Shown here: positions 1,422-15,087 of the stretch, one piece after another | Layout of the letters: the number at the start of each line of letters is the position of its first letter | Position numbering within the stretch: the stretch's first letter is position 1 | Source of the DNA: Natrinema longum | GTDB lineage: Archaea; Halobacteriota; Halobacteria; Halobacteriales; Natrialbaceae | Assembly (NCBI RefSeq): GCF_017352095.1 | Contig: NZ_CP071463.1 | Span: 744,001 to 808,000, forward strand | Direction of reading: 5' to 3' | Length of the DNA: 64,000 nt | Notes under the pieces: model-generated | Database searches by the model: none | Told to the model about the DNA's origin: nothing | Seen by the model: the letters and a program-made list of their open reading frames with translations, nothing else | Program-made: the position numbers and the translations under genes

Positions 1422-2348
1422 TCACTGTCGGGTATCGGTGACACCCGTCCGCTCGTCGACGCGCCCCAGCACGTCCAGTTGATGCGTGAGATAGAGCAAC
1501 TCCCCGGCGTCGACCTGGGCCCGGCGACGGGCCAGCCACTCCTCGAGTCCCTCGAACTCCTCGCCGGCGATCTCGCCGACCGCTTCCTCGACGGTAGCGA
1601 GAATGTGACGGAGGAAGTACGCCTCGTCTCCGGGATAGCTGCCGTCGACCGGTCGGACGACCCAGTCCGAGCCCGCGACCCCGAGAAGCGAGACGCCGTC
1701 CATGCCCTGGAGTCGAACGAGGACGTCCCCACCGGCCTGACTGCTGCCGCCAGGTTTCGCATCCATGTGGTCGTGGTAGCGCCGTTCGACGTCGGGGTCG
1801 GCGGGATGGGTCGGCCGGAATCGGGTCGCCCCGTCGAACGTGATTGGGAAGTAGTAGAGTCCGCCGGGAGCGACCGCGCCGAGCAGCGGTCCCAGCGCCT
1901 CCAACTCGAGGATATCGAGCACGGCCGCGCCGACGAGGAGGTCGGACGCCGTCGCCGCGCGATCGGCGTAGGCCACCGCCTCCGCGACGACGGGTTCGAC
2001 CGCGATGCGTCGATCGGGCCCCTCGAGCGTGAGCACGTCGGTCCCGGACACCGAGACGGGGCGGTCCTCGGCCCACGCCCGGAGATGCCGGCGAAGTTCC
2101 GTCACGTTGTCCGACTCCAGGTCGACGGCGGTGTACCGGATCTCACCCGCGGGGAGCACGTCCCACTCGAGGAATCGAGTCACCATCGTCCCGATTCCGG
2201 CACCGATCTCGAGGACGCACAAGGGACCCTCGCTGGCTTCGTTACGGGACGCCAGCCGTTCGCGTAGCTGCTCGACCAGCCGTCGATCGAGCGAGCGGTC
2301 GTCGACCGTGCGTTTCGCCCGGAGGTAGCGCTGGAACCCGTCGGTCAC
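1422..2348 (-). CDS. class I SAM-dependent methyltransferase
   Basis: A 308-residue protein with the SAM-binding motif I as VLEIGAGIGTM near residue 46 and a motif II acidic residue in YTAVDLES. The C-terminal part is probably substrate-binding. GTG start. Its start overlaps the stop of the glycosyltransferase by four bases (GTGA), so it is the last gene of a five-gene minus-strand operon. The substrate is unknown; context suggests a small glycosylated or pterin-like molecule (inference). Confidence 0.85.
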   Translation of the reverse strand: MTDGFQRYLRAKRTVDDRSLDRRLVEQLRERLASRNEASEGPLCVLEIGAGIGTMVTRFLEWDVLPAGEIRYTAVDLESDNVTELRRHLRAWAEDRPVSVSGTDVLTLEGPDRRIAVEPVVAEAVAYADRAATASDLLVGAAVLDILELEALGPLLGAVAPGGLYYFPITFDGATRFRPTHPADPDVERRYHDHMDAKPGGSSQAGGDVLVRLQGMDGVSLLGVAGSDWVVRPVDGSYPGDEAYFLRHILATVEEAVGEIAGEEFEGLEEWLARRRAQVDAGELLYLTHQLDVLGRVDERTGVTDTRQ

Positions 2349-3412
2349 GTCACCACCCCCGCGCTCGGGGCGACGTCGGCGAGCAGGCGACGGACGCGAG
2401 CGGTCGTCTCCTCCCAGTCCGGGTGGCGTTCGTAGCGCCGTTTGGCGGCCCGCCCCATCGCGGCCAGCCGATCGGGATCGTTCGCGAAGGTCCGCAACGC
2501 CGCTGCGACGGCCGCCGGATCGTCGGGGTCGACCAGCAGCCCCGTCTCACCGTGGGTGACGACGTCGGTCGCGCCACCGGCCCGCGACGCGAGCGCCGGG
2601 AGCCCGAAGCTCATCCCCTCGAGATAGACGATGCCAAAGCCCTCGTATCGCGAGGGCACCGCGAGGACGTGGCTCGACCGGAGCGCGGTCTCGAGTTCCT
2701 CGTCGGTGAGTTCGCCAGTCATCGAGACGCGGTCCTCGAGGCTGTGCGTGCGAACGCTGCGGCGAACCGACGCGGCGTACTCCTCGTCGACGGATCGGCC
2801 GACGACGGTCAGTTCGGCGTCGGGTTCGGCGGCGGCCAGTCCCTCGACGAGCGTGTCCAGTCCCTTTCGGGGAGCGATGTTGCCGACAAATATCACTCGT
2901 AGCGGCTCCGCTCGAGCACGGCTGTCGATCGTCTCGGCGTCGACGGACGGGTCGAACCGGTCCCCTGCTGGCGGCGCGACGACGGTCCTGTCGGGATCGA
3001 CCCCGAGGTCGGTGACGGCCTCGCGCGTGACGGCGCTGTTACAGACCACGCCGTCGACGGTCGCGAGGTACCGGCGTTCGACCGCGCGGTACAGCGGGGC
3101 CAGCGGCCGCGGTTCGCTCGCCCGCAGGTGGTGGACGATGCTGACGACGGGATAGGGGAGCTGCCGGTTAGTGTGAACCAGCGAGGGGTGAGCGAGTTCG
3201 TCCTGGAGCATGACGTCGACGTCGACGCGGAGCCGCTTTCGAAGCGTCCGGGAACCGTTGTCGAGCAGGCCGCGATGATACGCCCGCCAGGGGAGTTCGA
3301 CGAGTTCGACGGCGTCGCCGGCTCGTCGGAGCCCCTCGAGGAGTTTCCGGTCGTAGCGGAACCCGCCGGATCGCTCGTCGATGCTCCCGTACAGCGTCAG
3401 CCCCACTCTCAT
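2345..3412 (-). CDS. GT4-family glycosyltransferase
   Basis: A 355-residue retaining glycosyltransferase with GT-B fold. The N-terminal acceptor domain runs to about residue 165. The C-terminal nucleotide-sugar domain starts near VIFVGNIAPRKG and carries the family EX7E motif in YEGFGIVYLEGMSFG, followed by GGATDVV. No signal peptide or membrane segment is seen. It shares a four-base ATGA overlap with the pterin-synthase homologue upstream and a GTGA overlap with the methyltransferase downstream, indicating translational coupling. Donor and acceptor are unknown. Confidence 0.9.
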   Translation of the reverse strand: MRVGLTLYGSIDERSGGFRYDRKLLEGLRRAGDAVELVELPWRAYHRGLLDNGSRTLRKRLRVDVDVMLQDELAHPSLVHTNRQLPYPVVSIVHHLRASEPRPLAPLYRAVERRYLATVDGVVCNSAVTREAVTDLGVDPDRTVVAPPAGDRFDPSVDAETIDSRARAEPLRVIFVGNIAPRKGLDTLVEGLAAAEPDAELTVVGRSVDEEYAASVRRSVRTHSLEDRVSMTGELTDEELETALRSSHVLAVPSRYEGFGIVYLEGMSFGLPALASRAGGATDVVTHGETGLLVDPDDPAAVAAALRTFANDPDRLAAMGRAAKRRYERHPDWEETTARVRRLLADVAPSAGVVT

Positions 3413-3786
3413 ACGGCGTCGTCGTAGGTGGCTGCGGCCTCCTCGTCCTCCCAGATCGTGACGGTCAGTTCGGTGACGGTGTCGTCGGTGACGACGTCGG
3501 TCACGCGCTCGAAGACGACGCGAGCGAACCGCTCGACGCTGGGATTGTCCCCTTCGAACTCCCGCAAATCGTTGAGCAACTCGTCGCGGTAGCGGTCGGC
3601 CAGCGATGCGAGCGCCGCCTCTGCGTCGTCGATATCAACGAGGTAGTCGTACTCGTTCAGTTCGGGGCCGCTGAACGTCAGTTCTACCTCGTAGTGATGG
3701 GAGTGGGGCTCGCCTTCCGGACCCGGGTTCGGGACGGTGAGGTAGTGCTGTGCCACGAAATCAGTTGCTACCGTGGTCGAGTACAC
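3409..3786 (-). CDS. 6-pyruvoyltetrahydropterin synthase/QueD-family protein, Cys-to-Glu variant
   Basis: A 125-residue COG0720-type protein. The zinc triad is His14 (FVAQHY) and His28/His30 (HSHH). The residue four before the first His of HxH, the catalytic Cys of CxxxHGH enzymes, is Glu24 here (PEGEPHSHH). The NPSVERFA segment matches the family's NPT.E motif. Glu substitution is characteristic of PTPS-III proteins, which can produce 6-hydroxymethyl-dihydropterin. The start is a GTG at 3786; a GTG at 3792 is also possible. It overlaps the glycosyltransferase by four bases, which ties it to small-molecule modification rather than to queuosine genes. Family sure, reaction uncertain. Confidence 0.85.
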   Translation of the reverse strand: MYSTTVATDFVAQHYLTVPNPGPEGEPHSHHYEVELTFSGPELNEYDYLVDIDDAEAALASLADRYRDELLNDLREFEGDNPSVERFARVVFERVTDVVTDDTVTELTVTIWEDEEAAATYDDAV

Positions 3787-3881
3787 AGCCACAGTATCGG
3801 TCGACAGACACCTAAATCCAGAGGGTGCTCGCGACTTCCCGTCCTCTCCCGGCGACCGCCGTGGGCGTCCGCTCTCGTGTG

Positions 3882-4871
3882 TCACTCGTAGGTAAGCGCG
3901 ACCTGAACCGCCTCGTTTCGACGCTCCGCGAGCAGGCGGTAGGCCTCGGCCGCCCGATCGATCTCGAAACGATGGGTGAGCAGCGCCGAGAGGTCGGTCT
4001 CGGCCAGCCAGGACCGGACGTAGGCCATCCGCCGGTCCTTGTCCCAGCGGTCGGCGTGGTCCGGATCGAGGCGGCTCACCTGGCTGCTTCGAACCCGGAC
4101 GTGGCTCCGGTGGTAGCTCTCCCCGAGTCCGAGTTCGACGTCTTTCGTCCCGTACCACGAGCCGACGATGACCTGCCCCGCGAAGCCGGTCGCCTCGATG
4201 GCGTCGTCGAGAGCGACCGGGTTTCCGGAGAGCTCGAACGTGATGTCGGCCCCGTCGGGAATCGCATCGTCGACGTCTTCGGGAGCCACTGACCGGTCGG
4301 CACCGAACGACCGCGAGAGGTCACGGCGGTTCGGATACTGATCGACCGTGACGAGTTCGGTGAGCGGAAACTCGGCGAGCAGAGCCGTCGTCAGCAAGCC
4401 GACCGGCCCCTGCCCGAAGACGACCACCCGCGCACCGATCCGCGGCCGTGCGTCCATGACGAAGTTGACCGCTGCTTCCGTGTTCGGAATGAAAAGCGCC
4501 CGTTCGGGCTCGAGCGTGGTCGGGACGAGCGTTTCGGGCTCCGCGACGAAGTGGCTCTCGTGGGGATTGAACGCGAACACCCGTCGATCGAGCCACTCGT
4601 CGTCGACGGCGTCTCCGGCGGCCGTCACGTGGCCGACGGCGGCGTAGCCGTACTGGAGCGGATACGAAAAGGTCCCCTCGAGTGCGTCGATCGTCTCGTC
4701 GGCGGCCATCTCCGGCGACAGCTCGCCGCGATACACCAACAGCTCGGTTCCCGGACTGATGCCGGAGCGTTCCACGCGAACCCGTACCTCCTCGGGACCC
4801 GGGTCGGGGACCGGCTGCTCGCGGACGGCGACGGACGTGGGGCCGGTGAAATACAGCGCCCGCCCGGTCAT
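3882..4871 (-). CDS. zinc-free MDR-family dehydrogenase
   Basis: A 329-residue medium-chain dehydrogenase/reductase. The N-terminal GroES-like part reads VRVRVERSGISPGTEL. The Rossmann dinucleotide site is VVVFGQGPVGLL. I see no Cys in the protein, so neither the catalytic nor the structural zinc site of alcohol dehydrogenases is present. This resembles the BchC-like and zinc-independent oxidoreductase branch. ATG at 4871 is chosen; in-frame starts upstream add a basic, improbable 36 residues. It sits 95 bases before the pterin-synthase homologue in the same operon. Substrate unknown. Confidence 0.85.
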   Translation of the reverse strand: MTGRALYFTGPTSVAVREQPVPDPGPEEVRVRVERSGISPGTELLVYRGELSPEMAADETIDALEGTFSYPLQYGYAAVGHVTAAGDAVDDEWLDRRVFAFNPHESHFVAEPETLVPTTLEPERALFIPNTEAAVNFVMDARPRIGARVVVFGQGPVGLLTTALLAEFPLTELVTVDQYPNRRDLSRSFGADRSVAPEDVDDAIPDGADITFELSGNPVALDDAIEATGFAGQVIVGSWYGTKDVELGLGESYHRSHVRVRSSQVSRLDPDHADRWDKDRRMAYVRSWLAETDLSALLTHRFEIDRAAEAYRLLAERRNEAVQVALTYE

Positions 4872-5012
4872 GGCTCGAGCCGGCGTCTCCGGGGTAGTGT
4901 CGGCGAACCGAACGCAGGGTCGATGCCGCATGGCTCGCAACGTGAGGGGCTCAGCTGGCGTTGCACGTCTTGCACGCAAGATTTTCCCAACTAAAAGCGT
5001 ACTCCCTGCTTA

Positions 5013-5897
5013 CTATAAATATCCAAGTGCGTCGAGTCGATCGCGGTCGGTCTCGGCCCCGTAGATCCGCGAAACCGGCAGCGGTTCCGGCGGGGAACGC
5101 GTCGGCTCGCGGGTCCCGCGGTCGGTTCCCGTCGTCTCCGCCCACGGGACGGTGAGCAACGCCGGCACCGGGGTCTGCATCGGGTGGCCGTACAGCCCCC
5201 ACTCCCCGAAGAGGTTCCCGTGGTCGGCGGTGATCGCGACCCGGCCGTCGACGTTCGCGACCAGCGTCGCCACCTCCGGGAGGACGTACCGGAGATTGGC
5301 CTCGTAGGCCTCCCAGACCCGCTCTCTCGTGACCGTGCCCCGGCGAAGCAACACCCACGGATTCCCGTCGTTGCTGTGGCTGCCGGTACGGGCCATGCCC
5401 TCGTCGCCCGTCAGCGGGTCCGGGACGAACGGATGGTGGGGTTGCATGTAGTGGACGACCAGCCGTTCGGGATCGCGGTCGCGTGCGAGCGCGACCGCCC
5501 GGTCGGTGATCGCCGCCGCCGGGACCGTCCCGAGGTCGTCGTCCCAGGCGTACTTCCAGACCTCGTCGAGTGCGGCGAAGGCGTCGGCCTCGAGATACCG
5601 ATCGGTCCACGTGTTGCCGGTTACCATCACCGTCCGGGACGTCTCGGGAGTCCCCTCGAACGTGTTCTCGAGCCACTCCGAGGAGGAACTGCCGACCGAC
5701 CGCATCGATGCCACGTCCTCGAGAACGTCGGTCTCGGCGGCGACCGACCGCAACAGATCCGCCCGGCAGGCGTCGAGGACGACGAGGACGTCCCACTCGC
5801 GCTCGTAGACGTTCGTCCCGTAGGCCAGCCGGCGGCCCAGCGCCTGCAGACACCGCAGGTAGGCCGTTCCGAGCCGACTCATTCCCGGTTCCGTCAC
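5013..5897 (-). CDS. alkaline phosphatase/sulfatase-superfamily hydrolase
   Basis: A 294-residue AlkP-superfamily protein. The first metal strand is VLVVLDACRAD; the C-terminal metal site is ITADHGNLFGEWG followed by YGHP. MVTGNTWTDRYL fits the family core. No CxPxR formylglycine site is apparent, so sulfatase activity is not assured; phosphatase or phosphotransferase activity is possible. No signal peptide. Start GTG 5897, with an ATG at 5882 as the alternative. It is the first gene of the minus-strand cluster and divergent from the Gfo-AKR fusion, sharing an intergenic region of about 70 bases. Confidence 0.85.
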   Translation of the reverse strand: MTEPGMSRLGTAYLRCLQALGRRLAYGTNVYEREWDVLVVLDACRADLLRSVAAETDVLEDVASMRSVGSSSSEWLENTFEGTPETSRTVMVTGNTWTDRYLEADAFAALDEVWKYAWDDDLGTVPAAAITDRAVALARDRDPERLVVHYMQPHHPFVPDPLTGDEGMARTGSHSNDGNPWVLLRRGTVTRERVWEAYEANLRYVLPEVATLVANVDGRVAITADHGNLFGEWGLYGHPMQTPVPALLTVPWAETTGTDRGTREPTRSPPEPLPVSRIYGAETDRDRLDALGYL

Positions 5898-5940
5898 GCC
5901 CGTCGTTCGGACCGAACGGACAAAACGGCACCGGCGAGAG

Positions 5941-5948
5941 AAATATAT
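5941..5948 (+). promoter_or_regulatory. TATA box for the Gfo-AKR fusion gene
   Basis: AAATATAT is centred 26-27 bases upstream of the GTG at 5971, the spacing expected for an archaeal TATA box and a leaderless transcript. It also overlaps an upstream ATG (5947), which argues against that ATG as the start. Being nearly palindromic, it may serve the divergent hydrolase gene as well. Confidence 0.6.
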
Positions 5949-5970
5949 GGATCGCCGTCCCGGTAGGATT

Positions 5971-7944
5971 GTGAACTGTCTGTTCGTGGGTGCGGGTGCG
6001 ATCGCAACCGAGTACGCAGCCGGTCTGGCGACGAGTCCGCTCTCGCTGGCCGGCGTCTGCGACCTCGACGGCGAACGGGCAACGGCCCTCGCGGAGGAAC
6101 ACGACTGTCCGTCGTTTACGGATCTGGAGACGGCGCTCGCGGCGGTCGACGCGCCCCTCGTCGTGAACCTGACGAGCCACGCCGCCCACGCGCCGGTGAC
6201 GCGGACGGCGCTGTCGGCCGACCGCCACGTCTACTCGCAAAAGCCCCTCGCGCTCGAGGCCGACATCGCCGAGGAGTTGCTGGCGATGGCACGGCGGCGG
6301 ACCCTCGCGCTGGGCTGTGCACCCGGAACGCCGCGGGCACCGTCTCAGCGGCGAGCGGGGCGACTGCTCGCGGACGGCCGGCTCGGCCCCGTCCGACTCG
6401 GCGCTGCACATGCCCACGTCGGCCGCGTGACCGACTGGCACGACCGGCCCGACTCGTTCCTCGAGATCGGTCCGTTGTACGACGGCGGCGTCTACCCGCT
6501 CGCGGTGCTCGTCTCGTGGTTCGGCCCCGTCGAGCGCGTTCGCGTCGCCGACAGTCTCGACGTCTGGCCCGACCGCGAATCACGAGCGCCGGCGGCCCCG
6601 AGTCACGTCGAGGCGACGCTCGAGTTCGCCGCGGGACCCATCGTCCGGCTGACCGCCAGTTTCTACGCGCCCCATCGCAGCCGCGAGTTCTACGGGCTGG
6701 AACTCTACGGCGACGACGGATCGCTGTATCTGCAGGGCACCGGCGCGATGGACACCGCGATCGACGACGTCCAGTTCGGCCGCGTGGGGCGAAACTACAC
6801 GACTGCACCGCCACAGTCGCCCAGCCAGCCCTACGCCTACGTCGACGCCCTCGAGGAGCTCGCGGCGAGCGTCGCGACCGGGGAGCCGTCTCGGGACACC
6901 GGCCGTCGCGGTGCACACGTCGTCGCGGTTTGCAACGCGATCGAAGCGGCCGCCGACGCTGGCGGCCCGATCGCCGTTCCCGACTACGGGGCGACGAGCG
7001 CTCCCGTTCCCGAGCCGACCGTCGCGCCGTCGGACCGCGTCCGGCGCGCGACGGGACGCCACTCGCTTCGACTCCCGCCCATCGGCTTTGGCTGTTCGCG
7101 CTACCGCGACGGGGAGTACGTCGACCGCGTGGACTCCATCGCGACGGCGCTGGACGCGGGCTATCGGCTGCTCGACAGCGCCGAACTGTACGGCAACGAA
7201 CACCGGATCGGCGACCTGCTGGCCGCGCCGGGCTCCGCCGACCGCGAGACCCTCTTTCTCGTCGGGAAAGTCTGGCGCACCAACCACCGCCGCGAACATC
7301 TCTTGAACGCGTGTGCGGGCAGCCGGGCGGAGCTGGGTATCGACGCCTTCGACTGCTACACGCTCCACTGGCCCGACGCCTGGGAGCATCGGGGCCGATT
7401 GGACCGACTGGCCGAGAAGCCGGTCGAACGCCAGGAGTCGCTGACGTTTCCCGAGGACGACGACGGCGAGATTCGGACGGCGGGGATCCCCCTCGAGACG
7501 GCCTGGAAAAACCTCGAGGCGGTGTTCGACCGCGGCTGGGCGCGCCGTCTCGGCCTCTGTAACGTCTCGCGGGCGCAACTCGAGCGGGTCCTCGAGGCGG
7601 GAACCGTCCGGCCCGCACTCGTCCAGATCGAACGCCACCCCTACCAGCCACGGAGTGACCTCGTCTCGTTTTGCCACGACCGTGGGATCCGGGTCGTCGC
7701 CCACTCACCGCTGTCGGCACCCGGCCTGCTGGACGAGCCCGTATTGCAGGAGATCGCGGCGGATCGCGACCTCTCGCCGGCCGGGGTCGTCCTTGCGTGG
7801 AACGTGACCCGAGGCGTCGTTCCCATCCCCGCCAGCACGACGCGGGCACACGTCGTCGCGAACCTGGCCGCGGCCGCCCAGAGACTGAGCGACGAGGAGT
7901 GTGCACGTCTCGAGACGCTCCGGAAGCCGGATTTCGAACGGTAA
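5971..7944 (+). CDS. Gfo/Idh/MocA oxidoreductase-aldo-keto reductase fusion
   Basis: A 657-residue two-enzyme fusion. Residues 1-340 are a Gfo/Idh/MocA NAD(P)-dependent sugar-type oxidoreductase: FVGAGAIATEYA dinucleotide site, the conserved Lys-Pro in SQKPLAL, and YDGGVYPL where the family usually has a catalytic His. Residues about 365-657 are an aldo-keto reductase with the full tetrad: Asp and Tyr in LLDSAELYGNE, Lys in LVGKVW, His in YTLHWP. Start chosen at GTG 5971 because a TATA box lies 26 bases upstream. It is divergent from the pterin/glycan cluster and probably acts in the same pathway. Two oxidoreductases in one chain suggest successive redox steps on a sugar or side chain. Confidence 0.88.
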   Translation: MNCLFVGAGAIATEYAAGLATSPLSLAGVCDLDGERATALAEEHDCPSFTDLETALAAVDAPLVVNLTSHAAHAPVTRTALSADRHVYSQKPLALEADIAEELLAMARRRTLALGCAPGTPRAPSQRRAGRLLADGRLGPVRLGAAHAHVGRVTDWHDRPDSFLEIGPLYDGGVYPLAVLVSWFGPVERVRVADSLDVWPDRESRAPAAPSHVEATLEFAAGPIVRLTASFYAPHRSREFYGLELYGDDGSLYLQGTGAMDTAIDDVQFGRVGRNYTTAPPQSPSQPYAYVDALEELAASVATGEPSRDTGRRGAHVVAVCNAIEAAADAGGPIAVPDYGATSAPVPEPTVAPSDRVRRATGRHSLRLPPIGFGCSRYRDGEYVDRVDSIATALDAGYRLLDSAELYGNEHRIGDLLAAPGSADRETLFLVGKVWRTNHRREHLLNACAGSRAELGIDAFDCYTLHWPDAWEHRGRLDRLAEKPVERQESLTFPEDDDGEIRTAGIPLETAWKNLEAVFDRGWARRLGLCNVSRAQLERVLEAGTVRPALVQIERHPYQPRSDLVSFCHDRGIRVVAHSPLSAPGLLDEPVLQEIAADRDLSPAGVVLAWNVTRGVVPIPASTTRAHVVANLAAAAQRLSDEECARLETLRKPDFER

Positions 7945-7994
7945 CTGATGTGTGGTAACAGTACACCTATGTGATTAAAACGCAAAGGAACTGT

Positions 7995-8378
7995 ATGGGA
8001 ACGGCGGAGACACAGCGGACGGCGCTTCACACGGAGTCGTTGACCGGGCTACACTGGATCGGCGTCGTCGCGACGCTCGTCACGGCCGCTGTCCACCTCT
8101 TTCTCGGCGTCCGAATGCTTCCGTCCGCGATGGGAGGAAGCTTCGTACTCGCGGGATTGGGCTTTCTGGGTGGGATCGGCCTCCTCCTACTCGACTACCG
8201 GCGGCGAACGGTCTACGCCGTGGGGGTGGTCTATACCCTCGTTCAGATACTCCTCTGGTACTGGGTCAACTTCGCGGCCGGGTCGAAATCGTTCCCGGCC
8301 GACGTCGGGACGCTCGGTGCCGTCGATAAAGTCGCACAGGTAGTGCTCGTCGCGATTCTCGTCGTATTGTTGCGGTAG
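7995..8378 (+). CDS. four-helix membrane protein of unknown function
   Basis: A 127-residue protein with four predicted membrane helices (about residues 18-40, 46-66, 71-92, 104-124) and short charged loops (DYRRR). This looks like a haloarchaea-specific membrane family; I know no function. ATG 7995 is chosen over 7971 because the region between is AT-rich and promoter-like. It follows the fusion gene by 50 bases on the same strand but probably has its own promoter. Confidence 0.7.
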   Translation: MGTAETQRTALHTESLTGLHWIGVVATLVTAAVHLFLGVRMLPSAMGGSFVLAGLGFLGGIGLLLLDYRRRTVYAVGVVYTLVQILLWYWVNFAAGSKSFPADVGTLGAVDKVAQVVLVAILVVLLR

Positions 8379-8564
8379 CGAGTCGGTATGGTGGGAAAAT
8401 CGCTGCGTAGTTTGGTCGTGTTTTTAATTCGGTACGGTCACTCTCCTCGAGACGAGTCTTCTGAATGAGCGATTCGAACGGACTCCGTGCACGGGCCCGG
8501 TTCGGGCCGGCGAACGCGCGCCGCCAGCACCGACACCAGGGGCGATACGGACCAGGAGGCATCG

Positions 8565-9350
8565 ATGGCCGGCCGCCAGCGTGACCAGTCGCCACACGGG
8601 TGGCTCCGTCTCGGTCTGCCGCTGGTCGGTGCGTTCTGTCTCGCCGCCCTGCTTCGGGAGCTGTTTCCCGCCGCCGGGATGACCCGCTGGGTGGTCCACC
8701 CGGCAGCCGTCGCCGGACTCTGCTGGGCGGGCCAGCTCTGGTACGTTGGCCGGAGCATCGACGCGAACCGGTTCGCCCGCGATCCGTGGCATCGCCCGTT
8801 CGGGCTGGCGAATACGCTGACGCTGCTCCGGGGCGGGCTCTACGCGGTCGTCGCCGGGTTCGTCGTCGTCCCAGCGACCACCGACCTCGCGTGGGTACCT
8901 GCGCTGTGCTACGGTAGCGGGGTCGTGCTCGACAAACTCGACGGCACCGTCGCCCGGACGGTCGGGCGGGAGACCGCCCTCGGCCGTCGCCTCGATATGG
9001 CGTTCGATACGTTCGGCTTCGTCGCCGCACCGGTAGTGGCAGTGCTGTGGGGCCAACTCCCCGTCTGGTACCTCTCGCTGTCGGCAGCCCGCTACGTCTT
9101 TCTCGCCGGCGTCTACTGGCGGCGAGTTCGTGGTCGACCGGTGTTCGACACGCCCGACAGTAACCTCGGGAAGTATCTGGCCGGCGTACAGATGGTATTC
9201 GTGACGATGGCGCTCGCCCCCGCAGTGTCGACGGCGCTCGTCTGGACCCTCGCACCCGCCGTCCTCGCGCCGTCGCTGGCGGTGTTCGCTCGCGACTTCC
9301 TCGCCGTCAGCGGCCGACTCCCCCACGTGATCCCGGGCGGACAGAACTGA
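8565..9350 (+). CDS. CDP-alcohol phosphatidyltransferase family protein
   Basis: A 261-residue integral membrane enzyme. The complete family signature D-x2-D-G-x2-A-R-x8-G-x3-D-x3-D is readable starting at DKLDGTVAR and ending in GRRLDMAFD. About six membrane helices. It transfers a phospho-alcohol from a CDP-activated lipid or onto an alcohol; substrate not determinable. ATG 8565 is preferred; an in-frame GTG at 8487 would add 26 basic residues. The next gene begins four bases after its stop, so the two are co-transcribed. Confidence 0.85.
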   Translation: MAGRQRDQSPHGWLRLGLPLVGAFCLAALLRELFPAAGMTRWVVHPAAVAGLCWAGQLWYVGRSIDANRFARDPWHRPFGLANTLTLLRGGLYAVVAGFVVVPATTDLAWVPALCYGSGVVLDKLDGTVARTVGRETALGRRLDMAFDTFGFVAAPVVAVLWGQLPVWYLSLSAARYVFLAGVYWRRVRGRPVFDTPDSNLGKYLAGVQMVFVTMALAPAVSTALVWTLAPAVLAPSLAVFARDFLAVSGRLPHVIPGGQN

Positions 9351-9353
9351 TAT

Positions 9354-9830
9354 GTGACCGCGACCGTAGTGACACTCGTGCTCTTCCCGACCCACCTCGT
9401 CGCGGCCGCACTCGTCGGGAGAGCGACGACGCTGTCGTCTCGCTGGCTGGTCGTCGGAGCGGCGCTTCCCGATCTCGTCGATAAACCCCTCGGGATGGTC
9501 GGCGTCGTCGAGCTCTATCACTCGATCGGACACAGCGCCATCCTCCTGATCGTGGCGCTCCCGCTCGCACGGCACAGCCGAGTCGGGGCAGCGGCGGCGG
9601 TCGGATGGGGATCACATCTCCTGCTCGATGCCCTCCACGTCGTCGTCAACGGCCGCCCCGGCGACGCCCTCTTCGTCGGCTGGCCGGTCGTCGTCCCGTC
9701 CGACCCGCTGGGGATCCCGCCCGGCTCGTTCGTCCTCCACTACCTCTGGACGCCGTCGTTTTTCCTCGAGGTCGGCGTCTGGCTCGTCCTGGGAGCGGTC
9801 CTCCTCGAGGATCGGATCGTCGGACGGTGA
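9354..9830 (+). CDS. YdjM-like membrane-bound metal-dependent hydrolase family protein
   Basis: A 158-residue membrane protein with four helices. The conserved polar residues of the YdjM/DUF457 group are present: PTHL near the N-terminus, LPDLVDKP, LYHSIGHSA and WGSHLLLDALH. GTG start at 9354, only three bases beyond the previous stop, so it is translationally linked to the CDP-alcohol phosphatidyltransferase. A role in lipid head-group or envelope metabolism is inference from that pairing. Confidence 0.75.
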   Translation: MTATVVTLVLFPTHLVAAALVGRATTLSSRWLVVGAALPDLVDKPLGMVGVVELYHSIGHSAILLIVALPLARHSRVGAAAAVGWGSHLLLDALHVVVNGRPGDALFVGWPVVVPSDPLGIPPGSFVLHYLWTPSFFLEVGVWLVLGAVLLEDRIVGR

Positions 9831-11206: not shown

Positions 11207-12208
11207 ATGACTGACAGAGATGTCCACCTGCCGGTGGCCGCACAGCCGACGATCGACTCGATCGTCGACTACGCACAGACTGCCGAAGACGGCGGCTACG
11301 ATTGCGCCTGGCTCCCCGAGACCTGGGGTCGTGACGGCGTGACCGTGTTGACGGCGATGGCCGAACGAACCGAGTCGATCGACATCGGCTCGAGCATCCT
11401 CAACACCTACTCGCGGTCGCCGGCCCTGCTGGGACAGACCGCGGCGACGCTCCAGGAGGTTTCCGAGGGGCGATTCCGACTGGGACTGGGCCCGAGCGGC
11501 CCGGTCGTCGTCGAGAACTGGCACGGCGTCGAGTACGGCAACCCGCTCAGGCGCACCCGAGAGACGGTCGAGATCGTCCGGCAGGTGCTCTCGGGCGAGC
11601 CCGTCGACTACGACGGCGACGACTTCGACCTCTCGGGGTTCCGGCTGCGCTGTGAGCCGCCGGAGACGCCGCCGCCGATCGAGGTCACCGGCATGGGTCC
11701 CAAAGCGGTCGAACTCGCGGGTCGCTTCGCCGACGGCTGGCACGGCATCATGCTCACCCCCGAGGGAACGGAAGACCGCCTCGAGGACATCGAGCGCGGT
11801 GCCGAGCTCGGCGACCGGGATCCCGACGACGTCCAGATCACCACGGGCGTCACCTGCTGTGCGCTCGACGATCCCGAGGAGGCCCGGCGACTCACCCGCC
11901 AGCACATCGGCTTTTACGTCGGCGGGATGGGGACGTTCTACCGCGACGCGCTCGAGCGACAGGGGTACGACGAAGCGACCGAGATCTACGATTCCTGGCA
12001 GGACGGCGACCGCGAACACGCCCTCGAGCTGGTCGAGGAAAACATCCTCGACGACCTCTGTGCCGCCGGCGATCCGGAAACCGCTCGTGAGAAGCTCGAG
12101 CGCTACGAGGCGGTCGACGGCCTCGACGCCCTCGCGGTCAGCTTCCCGCGTGGCGCGAGCGAGGAGCAGGTTCGGCAGACGATGGAAGCCGTCGCGCCCG
12201 ACGCCTGA
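11207..12208 (+). CDS. LLM-class F420-dependent oxidoreductase (TIGR04024-like)
   Basis: A 333-residue luciferase-like monooxygenase/F420 flavin-type oxidoreductase with TIM-barrel fold. Family features are LPVAAQPTIDSIVDYAQTAE at the N-terminus, AWLPETWGRDGV, IGSSILNTYSRSPALLGQTA and GPSGPVVVENWHG. The halophile-specific group of this family is close to methylenetetrahydromethanopterin-reductase-like proteins. It uses F420 or FMN for hydride transfer; the substrate is unknown. Single gene, with 194 bases before the next. Confidence 0.88.
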   Translation: MTDRDVHLPVAAQPTIDSIVDYAQTAEDGGYDCAWLPETWGRDGVTVLTAMAERTESIDIGSSILNTYSRSPALLGQTAATLQEVSEGRFRLGLGPSGPVVVENWHGVEYGNPLRRTRETVEIVRQVLSGEPVDYDGDDFDLSGFRLRCEPPETPPPIEVTGMGPKAVELAGRFADGWHGIMLTPEGTEDRLEDIERGAELGDRDPDDVQITTGVTCCALDDPEEARRLTRQHIGFYVGGMGTFYRDALERQGYDEATEIYDSWQDGDREHALELVEENILDDLCAAGDPETAREKLERYEAVDGLDALAVSFPRGASEEQVRQTMEAVAPDA

Positions 12209-12402
12209 GCGGCTCGAAATCGGTTCCGTTTCTCCGTCGCGGTCCTTGCCACTACGATAGCGACCCCGACAACCCGCGTTCGGGTGAAATACAAGCGACA
12301 TCGGGGCTTTCAGGCGATTCTGCTCGAGCGTCTCGTTGTGCGTCCGAAATCCTGTACCGATCCTTCGACAGCTACAAACGGCGCATCGTCCCAGTTCGTG
12401 GT

Positions 12403-13413
12403 ATGCCCGGCAAGGTGAGTCCGGACGACCTCCTCGCACACGTCTTCGAGCGGACCGGGGCGGCCGAGACGGATGAGACAGTACTACAGGGCCCGGCTGA
12501 CGGCGAGGACGCCGCCGCGATCGACTGGCCCGACGGCGAGGGGACGCTCGTCGTGAGTTCGGATCCGATCTCCCTGGCTGCGTCCCAGGTCGGCACCCTC
12601 GGCGTCGCCGTCGCCACCAACGACGTGGCGGTCTCGGGGGCCGATCCGCGCTGGCTAACGGCCGTCGTCTTGCTGCCGAGCGACGAGGGCGAAACGAGCG
12701 ACCCGCTCCTCGAGGAGATTTCACACGACCTCCACGAAGCCGCCCGCGAGATCGGCGCGTCGATCGTCGGCGGCCACTCGGAGTACGTCGACCAACTCGA
12801 GCGCCCGATTCTCTCGCTGACGGCGATGGGGGCGACCGACCGATTCGTCCCGACCGGCGGCGCGGAACCGGGCGACGCCGTTGTCCTCACCAAGGCGGCA
12901 GGGCTCGAGGGATCGGCCATCCTCGCGGCCGACTTCGGCGACGAACTCGGGGTCGACTCCGAAACCCGCGAGCGCACCGAGGGGTTCCTCGCGGAGATCA
13001 GCGTCGTTCCCGAAGCCCGGATCGTCCGCGAATACGCGACGGCGATGCACGACCCCACGGAGGGCGGTGTCGCCGCCGGCTTGCTCGAGGTCGCCCGCGC
13101 GTCGGACGTCCGACTCGAGGTCGATCGCGACGACGTCCCGATCCGCGAGGAGACCGCGACGCTGTGTGCCGCCGCGGGCGTCGACCCGCTCCGGATCTTC
13201 GGCTCCGGCGCGTTGCTCGCGACCGTCCCCGAAAGCGCGGCCGACGACTGTCTCGGGGCGCTCGCGGACGCGGGACTCGAGGCCGCGGTGATCGGAACCG
13301 TTCGGAACTGCGACGGCGGCGACGCCGAACTCCGTCTCGACGGTGCATCGATCACCGAGCCGATCGAGGACGAGCTCTACCCGCTCTGGGAACGGGCGGA
13401 CGCGGACGGCTGA
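12403..13413 (+). CDS. AIR synthase-family protein (HypE/PurM/ThiL-like)
   Basis: A 336-residue two-domain ATP-binding protein of the PurM superfamily. GPADGEDAAAI near residue 30 and VSSDPISL form the first conserved strand. GGHSEYVD, AMHDPTEGG (HypE/ThiL-like DPTEGG) and FGSGALLATVP are the later motifs. It is closest in layout to HypE-like archaeal proteins, but no hydrogenase genes are near and the C-terminus lacks the PRxC tail Cys of true HypE. Reaction unknown. A CTACAAAC TATA-like box lies about 26 bases upstream. Confidence 0.85.
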   Translation: MPGKVSPDDLLAHVFERTGAAETDETVLQGPADGEDAAAIDWPDGEGTLVVSSDPISLAASQVGTLGVAVATNDVAVSGADPRWLTAVVLLPSDEGETSDPLLEEISHDLHEAAREIGASIVGGHSEYVDQLERPILSLTAMGATDRFVPTGGAEPGDAVVLTKAAGLEGSAILAADFGDELGVDSETRERTEGFLAEISVVPEARIVREYATAMHDPTEGGVAAGLLEVARASDVRLEVDRDDVPIREETATLCAAAGVDPLRIFGSGALLATVPESAADDCLGALADAGLEAAVIGTVRNCDGGDAELRLDGASITEPIEDELYPLWERADADG

Positions 13414-13441
13414 TTTCCGTCGGCCTCGATTCCGAGACCGG

Positions 13442-14749
13442 TCAGGCGGAGACCCGCTCGAGGAACCGATCGAAGGCCCCGCTCTCGGGATGGACGTGGA
13501 CGTAGGTGCCGAGCGATTCGTGTGCGGTCAGGCCGTCGTGGTCGCCGTCGATGCCGTCGCCCCGAACCGTTTCGAACGCAAAGCGGGCGTCGCCGTCGAC
13601 GTCGGCGCTCGAGTAGTGGAACTCGTGACCGCGGATCTCCTCGCCGGCGGCCGCCGTCAGCGTCCCCTCGGTGGCCGCGAGTTCGACGTGGTCGAGCGCC
13701 TGGTAGCGGTCGTGCATGCTCACGTCCGCGGGCAAAACCCCGGCCATCTCGCTTCGCGTTCCGTCCGTGGTCGTCAGCGACCGACTCATCGCCATCAGAC
13801 CGCCACACTCGCCGAGAACCGGCAGTCCCGCGCTCGCCAGGTCACCGAGTTCCGCGAGCGTGCCGGCTGCCTCGAGGGTCTCGGCGTGGAGTTCCGGGTA
13901 GCCACCGGGGAGATAGACGGCGTCGCACGCGGGAACGGGATCTCCCGCGACCGGCGAGAACGTGACCAGCTCGGCACGCTCGCGGAACCGCTCGATCGTC
14001 GCCGGATACCGAAAGCAAAACGCGGCGTCGCTCGCGACGGCGATCGTGGCATCGACCGGCGCTCCGGGCTCGGTCGGGGAGTCGGGACCGGGCGGTTCGC
14101 GCGCGATGGCCGCTAGCCGATCGGCCTCGAGCGACTCGGCCGCCTCCCGGAGGGCCGCGGTCGGCAACGCCGCCTCCTCGCCCATCTCGAGTCCGAGATG
14201 GCGGTCGGGAATCTCGAGGTCGTCGTCCGGCGGGATTCGGCCGAAGAACTCGAGCCCGTCGGGCAAGGCGTCACGGATGCCCTGTGCGTGGCGACCGCCG
14301 TGAACCCGTTGGGCGACGACGCCGGCGACCTCGATGTCGCGGCCGATGGTGTCGGCGTACTCGCGGAACCCGAGCGCGGTCGCCGCGACGCTCTCCATCC
14401 CGGCCTTCGCGTCGACCACGAGGACGACCGGCAGCCCGAGCGATTCGGCGACCATCGCGGTGCTCGAACCGTCGCCGTCGTAGAGCCCCATCACGCCCTC
14501 GACGACACAGATGTCGCCCTCCCCACGTCGGTAGTTCCGACGGAGACCGTCCTCGCCACAGAGCCAGCTATCGAGCGTCCGGGACGGACGACCCGCGATC
14601 GCCTCGTGGTGGCTCGGGTCGATGAAGTCCGGACCCGCCTTCGCGGGCTGGACCGCGTAGCCAGCATCCTCGAGTGCCTGCACGATCGACAGCGTCGCGA
14701 CCGTCTTCCCGACGCCGGAACTGACGCCCCCGAGAACGAACCCCCTCAT
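13442..14749 (-). CDS. cbiA: cobyrinate a,c-diamide synthase
   Basis: A 435-residue ATP- and glutamine-dependent amidotransferase of the cobalamin pathway. It amidates the a and c side chains of cobyrinate or its hydrogen precursor. P-loop GGVSSGVGKT at residues 7-16, AKAGPDFIDPSHH next, and a C-terminal glutaminase-like domain with catalytic Cys in GECGGLMAMS and the His of GHEFHYSS. ATG at 14749 gives the usual family N-terminus; longer in-frame starts only add basic sequence. No other cob gene is adjacent, but a B12-dependent mutase subunit lies near 43 kb. Confidence 0.93.
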   Translation of the reverse strand: MRGFVLGGVSSGVGKTVATLSIVQALEDAGYAVQPAKAGPDFIDPSHHEAIAGRPSRTLDSWLCGEDGLRRNYRRGEGDICVVEGVMGLYDGDGSSTAMVAESLGLPVVLVVDAKAGMESVAATALGFREYADTIGRDIEVAGVVAQRVHGGRHAQGIRDALPDGLEFFGRIPPDDDLEIPDRHLGLEMGEEAALPTAALREAAESLEADRLAAIAREPPGPDSPTEPGAPVDATIAVASDAAFCFRYPATIERFRERAELVTFSPVAGDPVPACDAVYLPGGYPELHAETLEAAGTLAELGDLASAGLPVLGECGGLMAMSRSLTTTDGTRSEMAGVLPADVSMHDRYQALDHVELAATEGTLTAAAGEEIRGHEFHYSSADVDGDARFAFETVRGDGIDGDHDGLTAHESLGTYVHVHPESGAFDRFLERVSA

Positions 14750-15087
14750 GGTCGTCGCGATGGGACGACGGTGATCGTCCCGGGAATCAGTCGGCGTTCG
14801 ATGATAGCCGTCTCCACTAGTCTCATTGTATTTGCGTTCGTACAACTCGACTTGAATCCGTCGGTAGCGCCGACGCGAGCGGGCTCGCCAAGCACCAGTT
14901 CTCGAGCCCGGCCCGTGGACCCGCCGTTGCGATCGCCGGCGAGGCCTCGATATGGCCACCGCGTCCGGGCGCTCGAGGGCGACGATGGCGAACAGTTACC
15001 CACAGCGTGTTCGGATCGAATCCAGGCCGTACCGCGATCTAATTCAACGATGTCCCGCCACCACCTCGGCCCTCGAACGTGTGAAGA
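14750..15087. other. intergenic region without recognised gene
   Basis: 338 bases between the divergent cbiA and the DNA glycosylase. No ORF with haloarchaeal codon use, no tRNA and no clear hairpin were found. It probably carries both promoters. Confidence 0.4.

Follow-up and report, generated by a model that had tools for sequence, protein, structure and literature searches.

What could be made by a gene cluster built around a homologue of 6-pyruvoyltetrahydropterin synthase (PTPS) that carries Glu where the catalytic Cys should stand? The question is raised by a locus of the haloarchaeon Natrinema longum, lying in a stretch of 64,000 nucleotides (contig NZ_CP071463.1, positions 744,001 to 808,000) that was analysed computationally and is referred to as a whole as the window. 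The operon is real and widely conserved, and represents a variant of a published but functionally unsolved neighbourhood. The reading favoured here, at a probability of about 0.55, is that it converts GTP, via a formamido- or diaminopyrimidine, into a glycosylated and methylated pteridine-like compound, perhaps linked to a lipid.

Four minus-strand genes, running from 4871 to 1422 in the direction of transcription, make up the core: a medium-chain dehydrogenase/reductase (MDR; 3882–4871, PF00107, with a BchC-like NCBIfam match, TIGR01202, under its cut-off), the PTPS homologue (3409–3792, 127 residues from a GTG start, PF01242 at 93 bits), a GT4-family glycosyltransferase (GT; 2345–3412, PF00534 at 2e-37 and other matches) and a class I SAM-dependent methyltransferase (MT; 1422–2348, motif VLEIGAGIG). 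The methyltransferase is weak in Pfam, but its AlphaFold2 model (pLDDT 94.9; best match 3mgg) has a confident class I methyltransferase fold, in agreement with the sequence-only reading of this DNA. That reading had also described five minus-strand genes, a hydrolase included, facing a fusion of a Gfo/Idh oxidoreductase and an aldo/keto reductase (AKR), and this layout is borne out: the five genes extend from 5897 to 1422, and the fusion diverges from them on the plus strand at 5947–7944. The 4-base overlaps ascribed to all five genes exist on either side of the glycosyltransferase gene (MT/GT at 2345–2348, GT/PTPS at 3409–3412), whereas gaps of 89 bases between PTPS and MDR and of about 140 bases between MDR and hydrolase, measured with the MDR start set at ATG 4871, separate the others. 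The MDR is zinc-free, as had been proposed, with SGIS in place of the zinc-site Cys and GYA in place of GHE; a zinc-dependent MDR alcohol dehydrogenase was accordingly rejected for want of its catalytic ligands.

Of 175 genomes of the order, 96 carry a PTPS orthologue at the search cut-off. Among 97 haloarchaeal loci the MDR recurs in 82, the glycosyltransferase in 86 and the methyltransferase in 75, with the MDR directly upstream of PTPS in 67 and the glycosyltransferase directly downstream in 74, and this recurrence means that the cluster is not a chance assembly. The sequence-only reading had allowed that the PTPS homologue might occur mostly without these neighbours, which did not come true; conserved co-occurrence of the six genes, which it had proposed as a check, held for the order MDR-PTPS-GT-MT but not for the hydrolase (16 of 97) or the Gfo/AKR fusion (21 of 97), which are not core. 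Bacteria show the same order too: it was seen in plasmid loci from Methylosinus, Streptomyces, Thiodictyon and Rhizobium and in the majority of 80 loci that come chiefly from Alphaproteobacteria, its carriers belonging to the Alpha-, Beta- and Gammaproteobacteria and to Streptomyces. These 80 were the best-ranking of at least 574 matches, and their taxonomic range is narrow. Among them, a glycosyltransferase accompanies PTPS in 79 of 80 loci and a methyltransferase in 69, the two being fused in one locus (L198). The MDR has YGY at the zinc-ligand site in every member covered (82/82 haloarchaeal, 76/76 bacterial, 5/5 from other archaea), and the motifs YGY, SWYG and SSQV are common to all three groups.

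In the PTPS homologue the residues of the QueD triad are replaced. Glu does stand at the catalytic Cys site, as claimed from the sequence (the window reads PEGEPHSHHY); it occupies this site in 95 of 96 haloarchaeal orthologues, with Asp in the remaining one, and in 6 of 6 related sequences from other archaea, while the bacterial relatives have Ala (83 of 84) and QueDs have Cys (15 of 15). In the alignment the QueD Asp-His pair becomes Arg/Asp in most haloarchaea and Asn/Tyr in most bacteria. Zinc ligands are retained in nearly all archaeal members, and the third ligand is Ala in all bacterial ones. Glu115 (numbered as in the window protein) corresponds to the Glu that anchors the base in known PTPS structures; no archaeal or bacterial member departs from it, nor does any QueD whose sequence reaches the site. 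With the triad replaced and the anchor invariant, the protein could, judging by its residues, bind a pterin-like or pyrimidine base, and cannot run QueD chemistry through the known triad.

QueD/PTPS-I shares the fold and the base-anchoring Glu, whereas the window protein has neither the Cys nor the Asp-His pair and keeps other neighbours. Genus g25, discussed below, aside, this identity was rejected on the ExxxHSH motif, the replaced triad, the missed cut-off (44 against 89.25 bits for the NCBIfam QueD equivalog; 20 against 125 bits for the broader PTPS subfamily) and the presence elsewhere in the genome of a true QueD with CxxxHGH, adjoining QueE; the sequence-only reading, too, had kept the protein apart from QueD. 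PTPS-II, the biopterin synthesis type with CxxxxxHGH, was ruled out, as no Cys precedes HSH. The Glu had been taken as the hallmark of PTPS-III, and here that reading fails: the published motif is ExxHGH (PMC5041015), and the hallmark does not apply because the window Glu stands one residue further from the His, at position −4, with Gly at −3 in the window and in 83 of 96 orthologues. PTPS-III, known from Plasmodium and as the archaeal folate/methanopterin type, does resemble the window protein in having an acidic residue close to the active site instead of the catalytic Cys, but with this shift in position, on which the identity was rejected, and with a weaker structural match.

The relatives point instead to PTPS-IV. 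The AlphaFold model of the window protein (pLDDT 95) finds its best structural relative in SCO6650 of Streptomyces coelicolor (3d7j; Z 18.6, rmsd 1.7 over 127 residues, Foldseek TM 0.90), ahead of QueD (Z about 16) and the Plasmodium PTPS-III entries (Z 14.7–14.8), and the haloarchaeal profile searched against the PDB also places SCO6650 first (3.2e-16, against 4.9e-10 for QueD). The two proteins have the same T-fold at 28% identity, and SCO6650 reportedly has neither zinc nor PTPS activity; its bacterial group differs from the window protein in having Ala rather than Glu at the Cys site and Ala rather than His as the third zinc ligand. A close relative in S. fungicidicus lies between an MDR and a GT4 gene, with creatininase, ribA and CDP-alcohol phosphotransferase genes nearby. 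SCO6650 carries FGPAQ, the signature of PTPS-IV (PMC5445326). This signature is not found in the window, which reads NPGPEGEPHSH; haloarchaeal orthologues keep the G (87 of 96) and the P (83 of 96), but have Glu where bacteria have Ala. The sequence FGPETRLHGH, which four other archaeal members have exactly or closely, falls between the bacterial FGPAQRLHGA and the haloarchaeal GPEGExHSH. Compared with PTPS-IV of COG0720, the haloarchaeal proteins share with the bacterial members the MDR, GT and MT neighbours and their order, GP before the Cys site and the lack of a catalytic Cys, but differ in the motif GPExxxHSH, in keeping their zinc ligands and in having GTP cyclohydrolase III as a partner instead of II. 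Since the strict motif is absent while structure, neighbours and gene order match, the protein is labelled here PTPS-IV-like: it is the counterpart of PTPS-IV in the latter three respects and not PTPS-IV by motif. The PTPS tree places it outside QueD, in which it is not nested. A frameshift interrupts the PTPS gene of Haloarcula marismortui (strain ATCC 43049) on pHMA411 (L135:10990–11400) and one of the copies of another genome (G120; L053:7986–8270), whereas the neighbouring genes are still present.

The nature of the substrate is suggested by enzymes that recur beside the core. A same-strand gene for GTP cyclohydrolase III lies no more than 6 kb away in 37 of the 97 haloarchaeal loci. These 37 come from 18 of 39 genera and 8 families, the position of the gene relative to the core varies, and chance would give about 0.4 loci; the Poisson value for this adjacency treats loci as independent and is readable only as far from chance. 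The enzyme is present in 168 of 175 haloarchaeal genomes, and a second copy in 15 of 96 genomes with the cluster PTPS against 3 of 79 without it (p = 0.012, counts made by hand). In a tree of 59 cyclohydrolase III sequences, a distinct clade (100/100) unites 11 that are linked to the cluster, and the other cluster copies fall among housekeeping ones; eight changes are needed, of which well-supported branches force at least three, so that, by this phylogeny, the enzyme has been recruited to the operon several times. The published PTPS-IV neighbourhood includes GTP cyclohydrolase II (PF00925) and RibD_C (PF01872) (PMC5445326, PMC5041015), and of the 80 bacterial loci 27 encode cyclohydrolase II and 36 RibD_C proteins. 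Cyclohydrolase II stands beside the MDR in two archaeal loci outside the haloarchaea, and in one of them (L240:1915–3720), from an archaeon of the same phylum, the two form an in-frame fusion of 602 residues (13–235 and 261–601), which deserves a second look because its contig comes from a 61%-complete assembly. What cyclohydrolases of the riboflavin type produce is the ring-opened pyrimidine of that route rather than dihydroneopterin triphosphate; one of them, the cyclohydrolase II SCO6655 of S. coelicolor, reportedly goes no further than the formamidopyrimidine, which is also what cyclohydrolase III makes. Searches of the haloarchaeal loci with the window-genome sequences found QueE only in seven loci of genus g25 and MptA in none, after matches in L073 and L102 to other frames of the MptA locus had been set aside. 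A GTP-derived pyrimidine is thus the better-supported precursor, compared with the dihydroneopterin triphosphate proposed from the sequence alone. Cluster cyclohydrolase II proteins of Alphaproteobacteria (L142, L144, L153 and others) have about 170–200 extra N-terminal residues, unmatched in Pfam in the one member scanned (L133:8694–9800).

Under the favoured reading, a riboflavin-type cyclohydrolase, III in haloarchaea and II in bacteria and other archaea, would open GTP to a formamido- or diaminopyrimidine ribotide; in the window genome this step would be supplied by a single cyclohydrolase III gene elsewhere on the chromosome. The PTPS-IV-like protein would probably bind the pyrimidine intermediate and close or reshape it into a pteridine-like ring, the side chain of which the zinc-free MDR and further or accessory reductases may adjust in redox steps, after which the GT4 enzyme would add a sugar and the methyltransferase cap the compound. 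A CDP-alcohol phosphotransferase (8487–9350, plus strand, PF01066 at 1.2e-15) could transfer the end product to a phospholipid, an attachment suggested by the frequency of this family: 49 of the 97 haloarchaeal loci encode it, as do 3 of the 4 annotated plasmid loci from bacteria. Outside the plasmid records the link is weak in bacteria, with only 2 of 80 loci by profile searches, the neighbour scan by tblastn having missed the family. What the analysis establishes is which genes are present and in what order, their conservation in two domains, the association with cyclohydrolases II and III and the active-site substitutions; the substrate, the chemistry of the ring, the sequence of steps and the lipid attachment are inferred from these. 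If the product is a pteridine glycoside, the cyanobacterial pteridine glycosyltransferase systems (cyanopterin, BH4-glucoside) and Sulfolobus solfapterin would work alike (PMC3546692).

Several observations weigh against this pathway. No GTP cyclohydrolase III lies nearby in 60 of the 97 haloarchaeal loci, the window included, whose genome has its sole copy at C1:438836 and its only RibD_C gene also away from the cluster. The PTPS tree, unrooted and made of three groups, cannot show the archaeal and bacterial PTPS-IV-like proteins as sisters apart from QueD. One common zinc-dependent ring closure is doubtful, because bacterial members have Ala at the third zinc ligand. Finally, the loci of genus g25 have no MDR or methyltransferase, and their PTPS-like gene is the sole family member in these genomes.

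It is tempting to go one step beyond the favoured pathway and imagine a split GTP cyclohydrolase I, in which the opening of GTP and the release of the pyrimidine ribotide fall to cyclohydrolase II or III, and the Amadori-type rearrangement and ring closure to the PTPS-IV-like T-fold protein. The product would be a new reduced pteridine glycoside or glycophospholipid, common to archaea and bacteria through horizontal transfer. Such a scheme is speculative and on balance unlikely.

The biochemical class proposed by the sequence-only reading remains plausible, but its substrate fares less well. Dihydroneopterin triphosphate made by the housekeeping MptA could feed a methylated pterin glycoside, in keeping with an MptA encoded in the window genome, with a GT4 enzyme and a methyltransferase among the core genes and with pteridine glycosides known elsewhere, such as solfapterin of Sulfolobus and cyanopterin with its O-methylated sugar (PMC3546692). 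Support from the neighbours, however, is absent: no MptA match stands beside the cluster, whereas cyclohydrolases II and III recur there, and the Cys/Asp/His triad used on this substrate is replaced, which makes the route quite improbable. Low odds are likewise given to a PTPS-like protein that works outside pterin chemistry and binds another purine-like ligand, the cluster making a modified surface glycan or phospholipid head group. The frequent CDP-alcohol phosphotransferase, the membrane proteins and the sugar oxidoreductases would suit such a product, as would the sulfatase, LPG-synthase-TM and FkbM neighbours in Rhizobium, but the repeated recruitment of cyclohydrolases and the cyclohydrolase II-MDR fusion would be left unexplained.

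Replacement of QueD in archaeosine synthesis, or supply of a folate pterin precursor, in haloarchaea draws its best case from genus g25. Its seven loci (L058, L059, L063, L070, L075, L076, L078) read cyclohydrolase III-PTPS-GT, with QueC, QueE and a CobT-family gene nearby, and there a queuosine/archaeosine role of the PTPS-like gene is possible. In the class sample, 15 of 37 cluster-bearing genomes have no other PTPS-family gene, but 7 of 22 cluster-free genomes have none at all, so that lack of QueD is not clearly linked to the cluster. For haloarchaea at large the proposal is very unlikely, given that the window genome has its own QueD and that the homologue misses the equivalog cut-off and has neither the Cys nor the QueD triad. 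As for a branch of F420 or riboflavin synthesis, early enzymes of these types adjoin the operon, but none of the 10 operon-carrying bacterial genomes checked gave a match to CofD, which F420 synthesis requires, 79 of 175 haloarchaeal genomes have no cluster PTPS at the cut-off while 168 have cyclohydrolase III, and neither cofactor as known needs a GT4-type glycosyltransferase or a methyltransferase, leaving this the least probable proposal. A published remark does link PTPS-IV to F420, citing unpublished data (PMC5041015).

Around the core lie accessory genes with a patchier distribution. The hydrolase of the sequence-only reading (5013–5897, minus strand) resembles the sulfatase/alkaline phosphatase superfamily, although its PF00884 match is weak (2.5e-4, 20.9 bits against a cut-off of 25). 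The Gfo/Idh/MocA-aldo/keto reductase fusion combines PF01408, PF22725 and PF00248. Beyond position 7944 the plus strand encodes, besides the CDP-alcohol phosphotransferase family membrane protein, a DUF7475 membrane protein (7971–8378, PF24287, four transmembrane-like segments by hydropathy) and a small membrane protein (9354–9830) with no Pfam match above cut-off, the homologue of which in locus L136 is annotated as 'metal-dependent hydrolase' in Haloarcula GH36. These genes recur in related loci, DUF7475 in 40 and the small membrane protein in 14 of the 97. In 21 haloarchaeal loci (e.g., L070:9649–10275) the operon has nearby, mostly on the same strand, a member of a family of about 200 residues that carries a conserved DGN(H/Y)RA motif and matches neither Pfam nor NCBIfam. 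Further downstream in the window, at 11207–14959, are genes for a luciferase-like monooxygenase, an AIR-synthase-related protein and a CobB/CobQ-type amidotransferase.

The window copy was probably acquired horizontally, as far as sequence relationships tell. Its PTPS groups with families f4 and f5 at about 75–86% identity (L033–L042, L065, L066, L068), three genomes of the same genus have a version at 57% and four others in the sample have none, and in Haloarcula and other haloarchaea the operon is plasmid-borne; together these observations indicate horizontal acquisition.

For PTPS-IV, a structure was released in 2008 and the neighbours have been published, but no demonstrated reaction or product was found, and the literature collection searched yielded nothing useful on the cluster, on phosphohalopterin or on SCO6650. 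The haloarchaeal version offers a testable precursor, with one operon recruiting two GTP ring-opening enzymes in two domains of life, once in fusion with the dehydrogenase, and among its carriers is Haloarcula, a cultivated and genetically workable genus. Should its product come to light, it would count as a new molecule, cofactor-like or linked to a lipid.

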